Shown in pieces: positions 13,873 to 23,341 of a stretch of 64,000 nt of DNA. Origin of the DNA: Pseudomonadota bacterium (lineage in GTDB: Bacteria; Pseudomonadota; Alphaproteobacteria; Geminicoccales; Geminicoccaceae); NCBI GenBank assembly GCA_030549795.1, contig JAUQQO010000053.1, positions 1 through 64,000 on the forward strand, given 5' to 3'. Position 1 is the first letter of the stretch. Each line of letters opens with the position of its first letter. Position numbers and translations under genes: made by a program. The notes under the pieces are model-generated. The model had not been told where the DNA came from, ran no database searches, and was given only the letters and a program-made list of their open reading frames with translations.

Positions 13873-16188
13873 TCAAGCTGCCCGGCGCGCGCGCGTGAGC
13901 CGCCAGATCTTCTCGGGTACGGCCGGCATATCCACATGCCGCACGCCAAAGGGCGAAAGCGCATCGACGAGCGCGTTGATGACCGCAGCGCAAGCGCCCA
14001 CCGAACCCGCCTCCCCGCAGCCCTTGACGCCCAAGGGGTTGTTGCGGCAACGCACCTCGACGGTCGAGAAATCGAAGAACGGCAGATTATCGGCGCGCGG
14101 CAAGCAATAATCCATAAAGGAGCCGGTCAACAGCTGCCCCGATGCATCATAGACGGTCTGCTCGTAAAGCGCCTGTCCGATACCCTGTACTACGCCGCCG
14201 TGTACCTGCCCCTCGACGAGGAGCGGATTTACCACCACTCCGAAATCGTCGACGACCGTATAGCGCACGATGCGCACCACGCCGGTTTCGGGTTCGACTT
14301 CGACTTCGGCTATGTGACAGCCGTTGGGAAACGTCCACGCGCCGAGCTCGATGCGGGCGCTCGCATTGAGCCCGTCTTCGAGACCCGGGGGGCGATTGGT
14401 CATGGCCCGCACCTGGCGCGCGAGCTCGAGGACCGAGATCGCCTTGTCGGTGCCGGCGACCCGGAAGGTGCCGTCCGCGAAGGTGATGTCGGCGACCGCC
14501 GCCTCGAAGAGATGCGCAGCGGCGAGCTTGCCCTTCTCGATCACCCGATCAGCGGCCTCGCAGATCGCCACACCTTCGGCGGTCAGCGAGCGCGAGCCAC
14601 CGGTTCCGCCACCCCGCGGGATCAGATCGGTGTCGCCTTGAACGATGCGGACGCGCTCGAAGGGCACTCCAAGGCGCTCGGCGAGCACCTGAGCATAGGC
14701 GGTCTCGTGCCCTTGGCCGTTGCTTTGCGTTCCAACCAGCACTTCGACCCAGTCATCGGCCGTAAAGCGCACGCTCGCGTGCTCGACCGGATCGCCCATG
14801 GTCGATTCGATATAATAGCACAGGCCGATGCCGCGCAGCTTACCCTGTGCTTGCGCCGCCGCGCGACGCGCCGGGAAGCTCTCCCACTCGGCGCGCGCGA
14901 GCGCTTTGTCCATCACCCGCGCGAATTCGCCCGAATCGTAGACTTCGCCGGCAGCGGTCTTAAACGGCATCTGATCGGGACGGATGAAGTTCTTCCGCCG
15001 CAACTCGATCCGATCGACCCCGAGTTCGGCCGCTGCGACATCCATGAGCCGCTCGATGCAGTAGATCGATTCGGGGCGTCCGGCGCCGCGGTAGGCGTCG
15101 ACCGGCACCGTGTTGGTGAACACGGCACGCACGCGATAGCTCAAATTCTTGACGTCGTAGACGCCCGGTAAGACCTTGAGTGCCGCTCCGGTGGGAATGT
15201 ACGGGGCGTAGAAATAATAATAGGCACCCATATTCGCGATGACGTCGACTCGCATCGCGAGAATATGGTTGTTTGCGTCGAAGGCGAGCTCCGCCAATGT
15301 GACGTGGTCGCGCCCCTGACTGTCGGAAAGAAAGCTCTCGGAGCGTTCTGCCGTCCATTTGACCGGGCGTCCGAGCTTGCGCGCCGCCACTGCGCACAGC
15401 GTGTACTCGCCATAGTACATCGCCTTCATACCGAAGCCGCCGCCGACGTCGGGGGTGACGACGCGCACCTTTTCCTTGGGCAAGCCGAGATGGCCGGCGA
15501 GCACGTCGCGGAAGGCCCATCCACCCTGGGTGCAGGTATAGAGGGTGAGCTTGCCCTCACTCGGATCCCAGCTCGCCACCGCCGCCCGCGGCTCCATGGG
15601 ATTGCACACGAGCCGGTTGTTGACGAGCTCAAGACGCACCACCCGCGCCGCTTGGGCGAAGGCTTGCGCGACCTTGTCGGGATCGCCGTACTGCCAGTCG
15701 AAGGCGATGTTGTTGGGACATTCGGCGTGGACCTGCGGCCGCCCGGGTTCGAGGGCCGAGGCCGTGTCCACAACCGCCTCCAGCACGTCCCAGTCGATGT
15801 CGACGAGCTCGGCGGCATCGCGCGCCTGGGCTTTGGTCTCGGCTACGACGAATGCCACCTTGTCGCCGACATAGCGCACGCGATCGCGGCACAGCACCGG
15901 ATGGCGCGGCATGGGCGCGCGGCTGCCGTCGCGATTGGTGATGGGGATGAAGCAGGGGATCGAGGCCTCGCCCAAGTCCTCGGCGGTGAGCACGGCGAGT
16001 ACCCCGGGTGCCGCGCGCGCCCGGCTCACATCGATGGAGCGGATGCGCGCATGCGCATGGGGGCTGCGCACCACCACGCCATAGGCCTGGCCCGGGAGAT
16101 TGATGTCGTCGGTGTACCGGCCGCGCCCGACAACCAGGCGCTGGTCTTCGACGCGGCGCACGGGCTGGCCGATTCCGAACTTCGCCAT
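13873..16188 (-). CDS. xanthine dehydrogenase family molybdopterin-binding (large) subunit, CoxL-like form II
   Basis: A 771-residue large subunit of the xanthine oxidase/CO dehydrogenase family, which hydroxylates aldehydes, N-heterocycles or similar compounds at a molybdenum centre. It shows GGGFGMKA, the active-site loop AYRGAGRPE near 364 (form I CO dehydrogenase would have AYRCSFR with a catalytic Cys), GQGHETAYAQ, and the C-terminal VKGCGEAGS with catalytic Glu726. The start has a very strong site, AAGGAGGAGGGG before ATG. Unusually, neither the FAD subunit nor the 2Fe-2S subunit is next to it; a thioesterase gene lies upstream. Partners must lie elsewhere. The substrate is unknown; this is not a true CO dehydrogenase. 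Confidence 0.9.
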   Translation of the reverse strand: MAKFGIGQPVRRVEDQRLVVGRGRYTDDINLPGQAYGVVVRSPHAHARIRSIDVSRARAAPGVLAVLTAEDLGEASIPCFIPITNRDGSRAPMPRHPVLCRDRVRYVGDKVAFVVAETKAQARDAAELVDIDWDVLEAVVDTASALEPGRPQVHAECPNNIAFDWQYGDPDKVAQAFAQAARVVRLELVNNRLVCNPMEPRAAVASWDPSEGKLTLYTCTQGGWAFRDVLAGHLGLPKEKVRVVTPDVGGGFGMKAMYYGEYTLCAVAARKLGRPVKWTAERSESFLSDSQGRDHVTLAELAFDANNHILAMRVDVIANMGAYYYFYAPYIPTGAALKVLPGVYDVKNLSYRVRAVFTNTVPVDAYRGAGRPESIYCIERLMDVAAAELGVDRIELRRKNFIRPDQMPFKTAAGEVYDSGEFARVMDKALARAEWESFPARRAAAQAQGKLRGIGLCYYIESTMGDPVEHASVRFTADDWVEVLVGTQSNGQGHETAYAQVLAERLGVPFERVRIVQGDTDLIPRGGGTGGSRSLTAEGVAICEAADRVIEKGKLAAAHLFEAAVADITFADGTFRVAGTDKAISVLELARQVRAMTNRPPGLEDGLNASARIELGAWTFPNGCHIAEVEVEPETGVVRIVRYTVVDDFGVVVNPLLVEGQVHGGVVQGIGQALYEQTVYDASGQLLTGSFMDYCLPRADNLPFFDFSTVEVRCRNNPLGVKGCGEAGSVGACAAVINALVDALSPFGVRHVDMPAVPEKIWRLTRARRAA

Positions 16189-18233: not shown

Positions 18234-19586
18234 TTAGAGAGCAAGGGCGTGGCGTGCCGCGCTCGCCTCGAGATAGCGATCGAAGATCGCAGCGACGACC
18301 CGCAACAGCGGCCGGTATTCGGCCGGTACCACGAGCCGATGACCGTCGCGGTGCACGACCCCCAACTGTTCGAGCGCGCGCAGCCGCTCGGGTGCGGCGA
18401 TACAGCTCTCGGCGTCGATCCCAAAACGCGCCGCGGTCGCGGCGATGTCGACCGCGCCGTAGCACATCACCGCTTCGATGAGCGCGCGCTCGAGGCGATC
18501 GCGCGCGCTCAGTGCGATCCCCCGCGCGGTGGGCAGTCGGCCCGCGCCTAAAGCCGCGCGCCAGGGGACGAGTTCATGCTGGTTCTGGACGTAGCCCTCG
18601 CGGAAGGTCGAGATCGCGGAAGCGCCGAGCCCGATCAGGGTTTCTGCGCTGTCGGTCGTATAGCCCTGGAAGTTGCGTCGTAAGCGCCCAGCTCGAGCAG
18701 CCTCTGCTAGCGGATCCTCCGGCAAGGCGAAGTGATCGAGACCGATCGGGACATAACCTGCTGCTTCGAGCTCTTCTGCCATCGCCTCGAATTGCGCGAC
18801 CCGCGCGAACGGGTCCGGCAGCTCTTCGGCTGGAATAAGGCGCTGGTGCCTTTTGAGAGCGGGCACATGCGCATAACCGAAGATGGCAAAGCGGTCGGGC
18901 CGCAAAGGTAAAAGCGCGCGCACCGTCTCCCGGCAACCCTCGACTGTTTGCCGCGGTAGGCCATAGAGCAAATCGACGTTGATCCGCTCGATACCGGCTG
19001 CGCGCAGATCTTCGATGACTGCGAGCGTCTGCGTCACCGGCTGGATGCGGTTGATCGCCTCTTGGACCGCGGGCTCGAAGGACTGCACCCCAAGGCTCGC
19101 GCGGTTGATCCCCGCCTCCTTCAAGGCGGCAATCATCTCGGCCGAGAGATAACGGGGGTCGATCTCGATCGCGCGTTCCGCTCGCTCGAGGATCACAAAG
19201 CTCTGCGCGATGCGCGCGTTAAGACGCAGGAATGCTTCGGGTCCGATGGCAGTGGGTGTGCCGCCGCCGAAGTGCAGGTGCGCAAGCGTAAGCCGTCCCG
19301 GCAAGAGCGCCGCAACGAGCGCGAGTTCGGCTTCGAGCAGCGCCGCATAGGCGCGCGGGCGAGCGGGATCGCTGCTCACCCGCGTGGTGCAGCCGCAGTA
19401 CCAGCAGAGCTTGTGGCAATAGGGAACGTGCACATAAAGCGAAACGGGCTGATCCTCGGGCACGTTCTGCAGCCAAGCGGCATGTTCGGCCGGCCCGATC
19501 GCGGACGAGAAGTGGGGAACCGTTGGATAGCTCGTATAGCGCGGCACGCGCGACGATTCGAACAGACGGACGAGCTCCGCGCGCAC
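18234..19586 (-). CDS. hemN: oxygen-independent coproporphyrinogen III oxidase
   Basis: A 450-residue radical SAM enzyme that decarboxylates coproporphyrinogen III to protoporphyrinogen IX without O2, in haem and (bacterio)chlorophyll biosynthesis. The cluster motif is Cys57-x3-Cys61-x2-Cys64, followed by Cys66, within HVPYCHKLCWYCGC. The HemN hallmarks RYTSYPT at 16-22, HFGGGTPT, and NFQGYTT near the C-terminal part separate it from HemW. The GTG start has GGAGG nine bases upstream. A perfect FNR-type box lies about 61 bp before the start, with TTTAAG suitably spaced as a -10, so oxygen-responsive activation is expected. The full length and the HemN-specific C-terminal domain favour a true HemN. 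Confidence 0.95.
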   Translation of the reverse strand: MRAELVRLFESSRVPRYTSYPTVPHFSSAIGPAEHAAWLQNVPEDQPVSLYVHVPYCHKLCWYCGCTTRVSSDPARPRAYAALLEAELALVAALLPGRLTLAHLHFGGGTPTAIGPEAFLRLNARIAQSFVILERAERAIEIDPRYLSAEMIAALKEAGINRASLGVQSFEPAVQEAINRIQPVTQTLAVIEDLRAAGIERINVDLLYGLPRQTVEGCRETVRALLPLRPDRFAIFGYAHVPALKRHQRLIPAEELPDPFARVAQFEAMAEELEAAGYVPIGLDHFALPEDPLAEAARAGRLRRNFQGYTTDSAETLIGLGASAISTFREGYVQNQHELVPWRAALGAGRLPTARGIALSARDRLERALIEAVMCYGAVDIAATAARFGIDAESCIAAPERLRALEQLGVVHRDGHRLVVPAEYRPLLRVVAAIFDRYLEASAARHALAL

Positions 19587-19640
19587 AGGTCACGACCTCC
19601 AGATCGTTGCGAAAGCTTAAAGCCCTGCGCGTGCCGCGCT

Positions 19641-19654
19641 TTGATCCAGATCAA
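19641..19654 (-). promoter_or_regulatory. FNR/Anr-type box upstream of hemN
   Basis: On the hemN-coding strand this reads TTGATCTGGATCAA, a perfect TTGAT-N4-ATCAA match to the FNR/Anr/FnrL consensus. Its centre is about 61 bp before the hemN GTG. TTTAAG lies about 27-32 bases downstream of the centre, which suits a class II activator site at -41.5 and a transcript start near 19606. The box is also about 122 bp upstream of the divergent ABC transporter gene, so an effect there is possible but less likely. Confidence 0.85.
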
Positions 19655-19775
19655 GCTCGAGGGTCGGCAGCGGCTTGAAAGCCCGCGCGCATCGTTCCAT
19701 ATCCGCGACCGCAGGCGCCCGCGAGGCGGAGCCGGAACGCACCAACCTCGCCCAAGTCTCGGGAGGAGAAGAAGC

Positions 19776-20723
19776 GTGCAGGAGATGGTCAGGCTCGAGC
19801 GGCTGACCAAGCGGTTCGGTGACGTCCGCGCTGTAGAGGAGGTGAGTTTTTCGGTCGGCCGCGGCGAAGTCTTGGGCTTTTTGGGCCCCAACGGCGCCGG
19901 CAAATCGACGACGATGCGGATGCTTACGGGCTATCTTTTGCCCACTTCGGGCACCGCGAAAGTCATGGGCTTCGATGTCGTCGATGAGCCCCGCGAGGTC
20001 AAAAAGCACATCGGCTACTTGCCCGAGGGCGCGCCGCTTTACGCAGACATGAGCCCGCTCGGGCTCTTGCGTTTCGTGGGTGGGATGCGGGGACTGGAGG
20101 GCAAAGAGCTCGAGCGCAAGATCGCTCGCGCGATCGAGCTCACCAGTCTCGAGGAGGTGGCGCACCGGCCGATCGACACGCTTTCCAAGGGCTTTCGCCG
20201 ACGCGTGGGCCTCGCGCAAGCGATCCTGCACGATCCGCCCGTCCTCGTCCTCGACGAGCCCACCGACGGCCTCGACCCCAATCAAAAACACGAGGTCCGC
20301 AAGCTCATCAAAACGATGAGCGCTGAAAAAGCGATCATCATCTCCACCCATATCCTCGAGGAAGTCGACGCCGTGTGCGATCGCGCGGTGATCATCGCCC
20401 GCGGCCGAGTCGTCGCTGACGCTACGCCCGCCGAGCTCGAGCGGCGCGCGCCCAACCACAATGCCGTGCGCATCACCATCGACCGCGAACGCGTGCAAGA
20501 GGCCGTGGATGCTCTGCGCATGCTCAACACCGTGCGCGACGTGCAGCGGCTCGAGGAGGTCGATGGTGTCGCCTCGCTTCTCGTCCTGCCCACCAACGGT
20601 GCCGAGATCGGTGCCGCGGTGAGCCAGATCCTCAACGAGCGAGGCATCCGCGTCGAACGGTTCGCCGTCGAGCGCGGGCGCCTGGACGAAGTGTTCCGCG
20701 CGCTCACAGCTGAGGCGGCGTGA
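19776..20723 (+). CDS. ABC transporter ATP-binding protein, GldA-like
   Basis: A 315-residue ABC ATPase of the ABC-2/GldA group. Walker A GPNGAGKST is at 38-46, the signature-like segment is LSKGFRRRVGLAQA, Walker B is VLVLDEPTDGLDPNQ, and the switch His is in IISTHILEEVDAV. About 90 C-terminal residues after the core fold (NAVRITIDRERVQEAV onward) match the extended domain of this group. The GTG start at 19776 has GGGAGGAG seven bases upstream. The permease, a GldG-type protein and a DUF4340 protein follow in close order, forming one transport complex at the inner membrane. The exported substrate is not known in proteobacteria. Confidence 0.9.
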   Translation: MQEMVRLERLTKRFGDVRAVEEVSFSVGRGEVLGFLGPNGAGKSTTMRMLTGYLLPTSGTAKVMGFDVVDEPREVKKHIGYLPEGAPLYADMSPLGLLRFVGGMRGLEGKELERKIARAIELTSLEEVAHRPIDTLSKGFRRRVGLAQAILHDPPVLVLDEPTDGLDPNQKHEVRKLIKTMSAEKAIIISTHILEEVDAVCDRAVIIARGRVVADATPAELERRAPNHNAVRITIDRERVQEAVDALRMLNTVRDVQRLEEVDGVASLLVLPTNGAEIGAAVSQILNERGIRVERFAVERGRLDEVFRALTAEAA

Positions 20724-20734
20724 GGGAGCCGGCC

Positions 20735-21469
20735 ATGGACGTCGTTCGCACGGTGATGCGGCGCGAGCTCGCCGCCTATTTCGCCACCCCACTCGCCTAT
20801 GTGTTCATCGTCATCTTTCTCGCGCTCGCAGGCGCCTTCACGTTCTTCATCGGTGGCTTCTTCGAGCGCGGCCAAGCGGATCTCGAGAGCTTCTTCGTCT
20901 TTCACCCGTGGCTTTATCTCTTCCTCGTGCCGGCCGTTGCCATGCGGCTGTGGGCGGAAGAGCGGCGCACCGGTACGATCGAGCTTCTGCTCACTTTGCC
21001 TGCTTCCACTTTCGAGATCGTGCTCGGTAAGTTCTTGGCCGCTTGGATTTTCACCGGCATCGCGCTCGCCTTGACCTTTCCTTTTTGGATCATGGTGAAC
21101 TATTTGGGTGATCCCGACAATGGCGTGATCCTCGCATCATATCTCGGATCCTGGGCGATCGCGGGAGCCTTCATCGCGATCGGCGCCTGCGCATCGGCGC
21201 TCACGAAAAACCAGGTGATCGCCTTCGTGCTCGGTGCCGCCATCTGCTTTCTGTTCCTCATGAGCGGGGTGGAGCTCGTGCTCGCCGCCTTTCGGCCCTG
21301 GGCACCGCCCGTGGTGGTCGACATCGTCGCGAGCTTCAGCCTGCTCACCCATTTCAGCGAGCTCATGAAGGGTGTGGTGAGCGCAGCCACCGCAGTCTAT
21401 CTCGCGACGCTCGTCGGCTGTTGTCTTCTCGTCAACACGCTCATCGTCGAACTCGAGAAGGCGGCGTAA
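20735..21469 (+). CDS. ABC-2 type transporter permease, GldF-like
   Basis: A 244-residue inner-membrane permease with about six hydrophobic spans, including AYVFIVIFLALAGAFTFFIG, FLAAWIFTGIALALTFPFWI, VIAFVLGAAICFLFLM and a last one near ATLVGCCLLVNTLI. The cytoplasmic loop RLWAEERRTGTIELLLTLPAS is the ABC-2 coupling region that contacts the ATPase. ATG 20735 has GGGAG upstream; an in-frame GTG at 20720 overlaps the ATPase stop. It is the membrane half of the GldA/F/G-like cassette. Proteobacterial members are common, but their cargo is unassigned, so gliding motility should not be inferred. Confidence 0.9.
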   Translation: MDVVRTVMRRELAAYFATPLAYVFIVIFLALAGAFTFFIGGFFERGQADLESFFVFHPWLYLFLVPAVAMRLWAEERRTGTIELLLTLPASTFEIVLGKFLAAWIFTGIALALTFPFWIMVNYLGDPDNGVILASYLGSWAIAGAFIAIGACASALTKNQVIAFVLGAAICFLFLMSGVELVLAAFRPWAPPVVVDIVASFSLLTHFSELMKGVVSAATAVYLATLVGCCLLVNTLIVELEKAA

Positions 21470-21481
21470 GGGGACGAGACG

Positions 21482-23341
21482 ATGAAGGATCGCCGCACGC
21501 TCGCCATCCTCGGCCTTTTCCTTTCAGCGGTTCTGCTGATCGCAACGACCGCCTGGGCGACCTTGACCCTGCGCGGCTTCAAGCTCGATCTCACCGAAAA
21601 GGGTCAATACACGCTCTCAAAACCGACCCTCGATCTTTTGGCCGAGATGAAGGAGCCCATCACCTTGCGGCTCTACGTCTCGCGCGGGGTACGCGACGCC
21701 AACCCCTTGCTCGCGTCTTATGCCGACCGCGTGCGCGATCTGTTGAAGGCGTATGTGGTTGCGAGCAACGGCAAGATCACCCTCGAGCTCATCGACCCGG
21801 AGCCCTTCTCGGTGGAAGAGGACCGCGCAGTCGGCTTCGGTCTGCAGGCGATCGCCCTCGAAGGCGGTCAAACCGGTTATCTCGGGATTGCTGGGACCAA
21901 CGGCACCGACGACGTCGACGTCATCCCCTTGCTCTCGCCGGAGCGTGAACGGTTCCTCGAGTATGATCTCACGCGCCTCGTCTACAACCTCGCCAATCCG
22001 GAAAAGCCGGTTGTAGCGCTGATCTCGGGGCTGCCGATCAACGGCGATCCCATGAGCCAGTTCCGTCCCTGGCAGATCTACGAGCAGCTCCGCCAGTTCT
22101 TCACCATCCGCTACATGGCGGGGGACATCGAAAAGTTCGACTCTGACGTGCAAATCCTCGTGCTCGTCCACCCGACCCGCCTTTCCGACAAGACTCTCTT
22201 CGCCATCGACCAGTTCGTGCTCGCCGGTGGCAAGGTCTTGGCCTTCATCGATCCGCACTCGGAAGCGGCGGCGATGCGCTCGCGCGTTCCGCCCGCGGGC
22301 GCGCAGGCCTCATCGCTCGGCAAGCTGCTCGAGGCCTGGGGCGTAGAGATCGTCGCCGACCGCTTCGTCGCCGATCGGCGCGCCGCCCGGCAGGTGCAAT
22401 ATCCAGCCGGTGGTCGACAGCAGATCGTCGACTATCTCGCGTGGCTCGCCTACGACCGCACAGCGTTCAACCGCGCCGATCCGATCACTGCCGAACTCAA
22501 CCGCCTCACCTTCATGACCGTAGGCGCCATCAAGCTGCGCGAGGGGGCTTCGGTCGAGCTCGTGCCGCTCGTCACCTCGAGCCCGGAGAGTGAACTTGTG
22601 GACGTCGGCAAGGTCGCGATGTTCCCCGACCCCTTCGGCCTGTTGCGCGCCTTCAAGCCGGATGGCGAGCGGCGGGTGCTGGCCGCGCGCCTCACTGGCC
22701 GTTTTAAATCCGCATGGCCGGAAGAGTTGCCGGAGGGCGTCGGGGAACCTTCAGAGCGCTTGCGCGAATCGAAGGCTCCGGCGACCATCGTGCTCGTCGC
22801 CGATACCGATCTTCTCGAGGATCGCGCCTGGCTCGCGAGCCAGCAGCTGCTCGGCCAGCAGGTGTTGATCCCGGTCGCCGACAACGCCGACTTTGTCGCC
22901 AACGCACTCGACTATCTGGCCGGCGCCTCGGCCCTCGGCGGACTGCGCGGCCGCGAGGTGACGCTGCGTCCCTTCACCCGTGTCGAGGAAATCCGCCGCG
23001 CCGCCGAAGCCGCCTACCGCGCCAAGGAACAGGAGCTCTTAGAGCGGCTCAAGAGCCTGCAGGACAAGCTCGCCTCGCTCGAGGTCAAGCGCGCCGAGGA
23101 CTCGGCGATGTTGGTGACCGCCGAACAGCGCGCCGAGATCGACGCGCTTAAAGTCCAGCTCTTGGATACGCGCCGGGAGCTGCGCGATGTGCAGTACGCG
23201 CTGCGTCGGGACATCGAAAGCTTGCGCGATCGGCTGCGCCTTGCCGGGATCGTGGCCGTTCCGGCACTGGTCGCGGTGATCGGGATCATCGTCGCGCTCG
23301 TCCGCCGCGCCCGCTGGCAGCGGCGGTTCGCGACCGCCTGA
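21482..23341 (+). CDS. GldG-type ABC transporter-associated exported protein
   Basis: A 619-residue protein anchored by an N-terminal transmembrane helix (about 9-30) and a C-terminal one (about 591-610, LAGIVAVPALVAVIGIIVAL). Between them is a periplasmic domain of the ABC_transp_aux/GldG type: LDLTEKGQYTLSKPTLDLL is the usual opening, and LVLVHPTRLSDKTLFAIDQF is a typical internal segment. Residues about 510-590 are strongly coiled-coil (long Glu/Lys/Arg/Leu helices), probably spanning toward the membrane. It sits 12 bp after the permease and 17 bp before the DUF4340 gene. Role in the complex: extracytoplasmic partner of the ABC-2 transporter. Confidence 0.85.
   Translation: MKDRRTLAILGLFLSAVLLIATTAWATLTLRGFKLDLTEKGQYTLSKPTLDLLAEMKEPITLRLYVSRGVRDANPLLASYADRVRDLLKAYVVASNGKITLELIDPEPFSVEEDRAVGFGLQAIALEGGQTGYLGIAGTNGTDDVDVIPLLSPERERFLEYDLTRLVYNLANPEKPVVALISGLPINGDPMSQFRPWQIYEQLRQFFTIRYMAGDIEKFDSDVQILVLVHPTRLSDKTLFAIDQFVLAGGKVLAFIDPHSEAAAMRSRVPPAGAQASSLGKLLEAWGVEIVADRFVADRRAARQVQYPAGGRQQIVDYLAWLAYDRTAFNRADPITAELNRLTFMTVGAIKLREGASVELVPLVTSSPESELVDVGKVAMFPDPFGLLRAFKPDGERRVLAARLTGRFKSAWPEELPEGVGEPSERLRESKAPATIVLVADTDLLEDRAWLASQQLLGQQVLIPVADNADFVANALDYLAGASALGGLRGREVTLRPFTRVEEIRRAAEAAYRAKEQELLERLKSLQDKLASLEVKRAEDSAMLVTAEQRAEIDALKVQLLDTRRELRDVQYALRRDIESLRDRLRLAGIVAVPALVAVIGIIVALVRRARWQRRFATA

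Follow-up and report, generated by a model that had tools for sequence, protein, structure and literature searches.

The palindrome TTGAT-N4-ATCAA upstream of hemN is very probably the site of an FNR-type (FnrN/FnrL-like) oxygen regulator, which, judging from comparative sequence analysis, would activate hemN as a class II promoter. The palindrome lies in the 64,000-nucleotide stretch of DNA analysed here (henceforth the window), where it reads TTGATCCAGATCAA at positions 19641-19654 and, in the direction of hemN on the minus strand, TTGATCTGGATCAA. A check of the sequence bears out both the motif and its place as given in a first-pass annotation made from the raw letters. The features on the hemN side are as follows:

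18234..19586, minus strand: hemN, oxygen-independent coproporphyrinogen III oxidase, 450 aa, with a CxxxCxxCxC motif (TIGR00538, Radical_SAM, HemN_C)
19595..19600, minus strand: ribosome-binding site GGAGGT, 8 nt upstream of the hemN GTG, from the sequence
19641..19654, minus strand: FNR-type box TTGAT-N4-ATCAA, palindromic, from the sequence, with a perfect copy in all six genomes of the genus that were searched

The hemN product scores 401.6 bits against the TIGR00538 equivalog (cut-off 324.95), the next family reaching 153.7 against a cut-off of 380. Its translation contains the stretch CHKLCWYCGC, an instance of CxxxCxxCxC, the radical-SAM motif that is canonical for HemN; the Radical_SAM domain is matched, as is the C-terminal domain HemN_C (PF06969; 35 bits, cut-off 24). 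The GTG at 19586 is supported as the start codon because GGAGGT stands 8 nt before it. The closest named hemN records come from Geminicoccaceae metagenome bins, with 79% identity at best in a list that may leave out the window's own record. The genome also encodes HemF, which carries out the same step in an oxygen-dependent manner, as an intact frame of 291 aa on the same contig; the HemF search match showed one TAA, and the intact frame ends near there. Elsewhere in the window, 13873-16188 codes for the large subunit of a molybdopterin dehydrogenase of the aerobic CO dehydrogenase/glyceraldehyde dehydrogenase kind, which reaches the cut-off of none of the 13 families listed.

The box sits in the 189-bp gap between hemN and a divergent gene for a GldA-like ABC protein. 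From its centre (19647.5) to the GTG of hemN the distance is 61.5 bp, in agreement with the 61 bp noted at first sight, and 54 bases separate the box from the start codon. Under a first-order Markov model of the window, this gap should hold 4.4e-5 perfect boxes and the whole genome of 3.16 Mb about 0.8. Six were observed in the genome: hemN, ccoN and a DUF2267 gene are each preceded by one, and the other three fall inside long reading frames (L003, L004, L006); the pattern read backward has no copy in the same 3.16 Mb. When one mismatch is allowed, the window holds two boxes against 0.54 expected, a count that is unconvincing by itself because 14 of 100 shuffles reach two. What makes the box convincing is its conservation in all six genus genomes searched. 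The three copies within reading frames do indicate that chance copies exist, and many relatives have no box before hemN; nevertheless, the low expectation for the intergenic stretch and the recurrence of the box at about the same place throughout the genus, though the surrounding gap mostly differs (in an alignment of five loci), leave a functionless chance palindrome extremely improbable. In that alignment, only the box and a second block, discussed below, stand out from the divergent intergenic sequence.

The wider distribution of the box was surveyed in 40 genomes, namely the window's own and 39 relatives. Matches to hemN were found in 38 of these, 25 of them strong (E 1e-110 or better; L012-L041 minus L037-L041) and the others only weaker HemN-like proteins; L037-L041, being weak matches to other HemN-like proteins, were left unscored. 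Among the strong loci, 22 were anchored on the motif RYTSYPT and scored, with L017, L029 and L035 left out as the anchor was missing. A perfect box lies within 420 bp upstream in 10 of the 22 scored loci, and a box matching 9/10 positions in two more. Within the genus all five scored loci have a perfect box, and the sixth genome (G002), whose hemN is split over two contigs, shows it in a separately fetched locus (L164), which brings the genus to six of six, the window's own included. Beyond the genus, a perfect box precedes hemN in four genomes of the family (G010, G011, G017, G021) and in one class-level relative (G038), where it lies farther upstream. The remaining 12 of the 22 scored loci (own and relatives) have no perfect box within 420 bp. 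Ten of these 12 come from genomes with a cysteine-bearing homologue of the regulator (G006, G013, G014, G016, G019, G020, G022, G023, G024, G032), and a co-occurrence of regulator and box across relatives was accordingly not borne out: outside the genus, presence of the regulator does not predict a box before hemN. A further set of named genomes yielded 80 hemN loci, two of which were skipped for too little upstream DNA; 3 of the 78 scored have a perfect box and 12 a box at 9/10 or better, with the proviso that some of these records may equal G001-G003. Among 156 coding-sequence control windows of the same length none has a perfect box and three have one at 9/10 or better, and in control windows farther upstream the corresponding figures are zero and one.

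The spacing between the box and the gene points to the mode of activation, by way of two predicted elements:

19613..19619, minus strand: hemN promoter, predicted -10 region (TAAGCT, 19619-19614), with the A at 19617 invariant in six genomes
19606, minus strand: position at which hemN transcription is predicted to begin, 41.5 bp away from the centre of the box

When the six hemN promoters of the genus are aligned at the box, the best -10 match begins 23 nt after it, where the TATAAT score averages 2.33 out of 4.5, compared with 0.62 as the mean of 40 offsets; the six sequences come from related genomes, and their columns are not independent. The A at +24 after the box is found in all six and is the sole invariant column of the next 60 besides positions 2 and 3. 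Taken alone, TAAGCT is a weak hexamer and a poor match to TATAAT. The plausible -10 about 30 bp further on that the first-pass annotation had proposed stands as to its place, about 31 bp from the box centre and near the position favoured in the six genomes, and is less persuasive as a sequence. The start is predicted at 41.5 bp from the box centre because the invariant A was taken as position -11; at about 19606 it would give hemN a 20-nt leader containing GGAGGT. At FNR-activated promoters the usual position of the box is -41.5 (PMC3688515). The disposition of the box, the -10 region and the start codon in the six genomes, with the start as predicted, fits a class II FNR geometry.

The intergenic region is shared with a divergently transcribed gene. 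The features on the plus strand are:

19776..20723, plus strand: gene for a GldA-like ABC ATP-binding protein, which heads a GldA/F/G-like operon (TIGR03522, 308.8 bits, below the cut-off of 402.6)
19675..19703, plus strand: separate predicted promoter for the ABC operon, sigma-70-like (TTGAAA-N17-CATATC), conserved as TTGAAA-N16/17-CATAT in all six genus genomes

The operon as a whole (19776-23341) is of the GldA/GldF/GldG-like kind, which is named for gliding motility, and occurs here in an apparent alphaproteobacterium; all its members score below their family cut-offs. Homologues of gldA at E 1e-80 or better were recovered from 22 of the 40 genomes. Where gldA adjoins hemN, a perfect box is present in 7/7 cases; where it does not, none of 15 loci has a box of 9/10 or better within 400 bp upstream. 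Conversely, hemN loci with no gldA match in the fetched stretch (G010, G017, G021, G038) keep the perfect box. One of the gldA matches (L172, G011:C29:78433-79374) contains an in-frame TAG; the gene might naturally end there, or the stop might reflect a pseudogene or an error in the sequence. The second conserved block of the gap, TTGAAA-N16/17-CATAT on the plus strand, would provide gldA with its own -35/-10 pair in all six genus genomes, and the distance from the box centre to the predicted gldA start varies among them (59.5, 62.5, 65.5, 68.5, 70.5 and 86.5 bp). The box as an element of the ABC operon was rejected on these grounds, viz., its absence from all 15 gldA loci without an adjacent hemN and the variable spacing to the gldA promoter. 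By this distribution the box belongs to hemN, and the GldA-like ABC gene is probably not a target. A single box might still serve both directions, acting as class II at hemN and as class I at the ABC operon in this genome: its centre is here 62.5 bp from the predicted gldA start, near the class I position, and Dinoroseobacter shibae is reported to use one Fnr/Dnr box both ways between nirS and nosR2 (PMC5398030). We regard such bidirectional action as very unlikely, given the gldA promoter's own -35/-10 pair, the 15 unaccompanied gldA genes that have no box, and a range of spacings over which the helix face is not kept.

The reading of the box as the site of an FNR-type regulator calls for a protein of that type. 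A genome scan for an FNR-family gene, set beforehand as a possible refutation, found one, as the first-pass annotation had predicted in calling for an FNR/Anr-type regulator. HTH_Crp_2 has five matches in this genome, one of which combines the FNR-type cysteines (C-x2-C-x7-C and a central Cys) with the E-x2-S-R helix. This protein, encoded at L007:1483-2241 (minus strand), displays CESCRVRGVAIC and the central cysteine C129, and its recognition helix LTIETVSR aligns with the LTVETISR of FNR-type chains. Among solved proteins it matches FixK2 and FNR-type regulators best, and its best family match is NCBIfam FnrL (NF045989); on these sequence criteria we classify it as FNR/FnrN-type, and not as a member of the FnrL equivalog because its 175.9 bits are under the cut-off of 300. 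A C-x2-C-x(4-9)-C motif is found in all six genus genomes and in 25 of the 30 regulator homologues fetched. The regulator's own gene is preceded by a box matching 9/10 positions. This asymmetric TTGAC-N4-ATCAA (L154:1501-1514 = G000:C11:118582-118595) occurs at 12 of 30 loci, i.e., in all six genus genomes and six more of the family, and its TTGACC half is followed by a TA-starting hexamer at 19 bp (five of six in the genus) or 18 bp (five of six in the family). The TTGACC half could therefore double as a -35 element, with self-repression as the outcome. The FnrN of Rhizobium leguminosarum acts on its own gene via two boxes, as an activator and as a repressor (PMC7888657).

The search for other boxes in the genome, likewise suggested at the outset, turned up, in addition to the near-perfect one of the FNR-type gene, a perfect box before ccoN. 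The gene is a known FnrN target (PMC4999443); its product matches TIGR00780 with 764 bits (cut-off 583). A perfect TTGAT-N4-ATCAA precedes ccoN in all five genus genomes with a ccoN match and in 9 of 15 loci overall; loci L210-L212, each a partial or second copy, were left out of the box-type counts. At the five ccoN promoters aligned (L195-L199), the class II position is not the best one, as the top -10 match lies 9 nt after the box and the 23-nt position comes second. An offset of 9 nt would put the box centre near -27.5, which is odd for an activator; a further stretch on the upstream side of the box likewise seems to be conserved in the ccoN promoters. The third intergenic perfect copy (L005:1501-1514, G000:C46:435632-435645) has the same 14-mer as hemN and precedes the DUF2267 gene, which is a candidate further target; the reading frame after it encodes what we take to be a BON-like protein. 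In all, 18 sites of the form TTGAY-N4-RTCAA, the six perfect ones among them, are present in the genome and were examined by their reading frames.

A second member of the Crp/Fnr family in this genome also bears on the assignment of the box. This protein (L009) is without a cysteine cluster, has a P-E-T-L-S-R helix and is DNR/NnrR-like; its gene shares a contig with a nirS-like cytochrome d1 gene and lies about 2.3 kb from the start of the latter. One TTGAC-N4-GTCAA (L157:1501-1514, G000:C36:21957-21970) lies between this nirS-like gene and a divergent NosR-like gene, whose product scores below the cut-off of the NosR model; the layout is that of the bidirectional nirS/nosR2 box of D. shibae (PMC5398030). 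Were the L009 protein to read the hemN box mainly or in part, hemN would answer to nitric oxide in denitrification rather than to oxygen. The proximity of its gene to nirS, the box shared by the two denitrification-type genes and the make-up of the protein itself agree with this, the leading alternative, as do published DNR or NnrR sites before hemN in Burkholderia and some alphaproteobacteria (PMC1274295), the published view that alphaproteobacterial FNR, FixK and DNR sites cannot be told apart (PMC2908626) and the sharing of a site by the FnrL and Dnr proteins of Dinoroseobacter (PMC5398030). An attempt to tell the FNR-type from the L009 regulator by presence and absence failed, as homologues of the latter occur in all six genus genomes (partial in G002 and in two pieces in G003) and in G010, G011, G017 and G021.

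Box types were compared because presence and absence could not separate the two regulators. Among 10 nirS loci (with the second nirS copy L194 left out of the counts), eight have TTGAC-N4-GTCAA, one a mixed box and one none; TTGAT-N4-ATCAA precedes nirS at none of the 10. The genus boxes before hemN (6/6) and ccoN (5/5) are, against this, uniformly TTGAT-N4-ATCAA, so that the hemN box, tested as a DNR/NnrR site by this comparison, does not share the type of the denitrification genes. Further, G002 keeps its hemN box and has no nirS match at E 1e-80. Outside the genus the division is looser, in that mixed boxes precede hemN in G013 and G024 and ccoN in G009, and the ccoN of G024 is preceded by both types. 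This split of box types by target is only suggestive as to which protein binds. Within the genus the box types favour the FNR-type protein for hemN, and control of hemN, in the main or in part, by the L009 regulator appears unlikely to us. A more elaborate proposal would be that the FNR-family regulators of the genus are insulated from each other by the fifth base of the half-site, with TTGAT-N4-ATCAA at hemN and ccoN, TTGAC-N4-GTCAA at nirS/nosR, and the asymmetric hybrid TTGAC-N4-ATCAA, acting in self-repression, at the FNR-type gene; we offer this as a speculation that we ourselves doubt.

Under the favoured reading, in which the FNR-type regulator acts at hemN, the following course of events is inferred, from the cluster chemistry through binding and activation to the site where transcription starts. 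As oxygen falls, the Fe-S cluster of the regulator would stay intact and the protein would dimerise; the dimer would then bind the box, some 41.5 bp ahead of the hemN start, and recruit RNA polymerase, and the oxygen-independent HemN may in this way replace or supplement the oxygen-dependent HemF. This extends a known oxygen-control circuit, in which an FNR-type regulator governs hemN and the cbb3 oxidase, to a Geminicoccaceae-related lineage with denitrification-type genes. A box spotted by eye in raw sequence correctly foretold the regulator gene. The general picture is unchanged; only the possible division of box types between oxygen and nitric oxide deserves specialist attention.

The hemN box is a further instance of a known circuit in an ordinary arrangement, because hemN is a known target under FnrN (PMC4999443), in Sphingopyxis (PMC7713065) and under Anr in Pseudomonas (PMC6588701). 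The initial statement that FNR-family control of hemN is known elsewhere agrees with the FnrN/FnrL control published for other alphaproteobacteria: hemN, hemA, cco and fnrN are known FnrN targets in Rhodobacterales, Rhodospirillales and Sphingomonadales (PMC4999443). The system described here resembles the FnrN/FnrL regulon in having a cysteine-bearing FNR protein and FNR-type boxes upstream of hemN, of ccoN and of the gene for the regulator itself (PMC4999443, PMC2908626), and differs in its lineage from those studied, the word stem 'geminicocc' being absent from the main text of PMC4999443. The hemN site of R. sphaeroides is imperfect, TTGCG-N4-ATCAA (PMC2908626), whereas the box here is perfect. 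In Pseudomonas, hemN belongs to the core Anr regulon, and Anr-box-like sequences precede it in every species analysed in that work (PMC6588701); the Anr/Dnr proteins concerned belong to another proteobacterial class and another regulator lineage than ours. DNR and NnrR regulons, too, have FNR-family boxes at denitrification genes and, in some species, at hemN (PMC1274295). The published alphaproteobacterial NnrR consensus is ctTTGcgnnnncgCAAag (PMC1274295), and in the genomes studied here the nirS box is mostly TTGAC-N4-GTCAA and the hemN box of the TTGAT type. A likeness to the present hemN promoter is also seen at hemN2 of Sphingopyxis granuli, a class II promoter with an FNR box centred at -42.5 before the gene for an oxygen-independent coproporphyrinogen oxidase (PMC7713065); starts in that organism come from RNA sequencing (PMC7713065), whereas the hemN start here is predicted.
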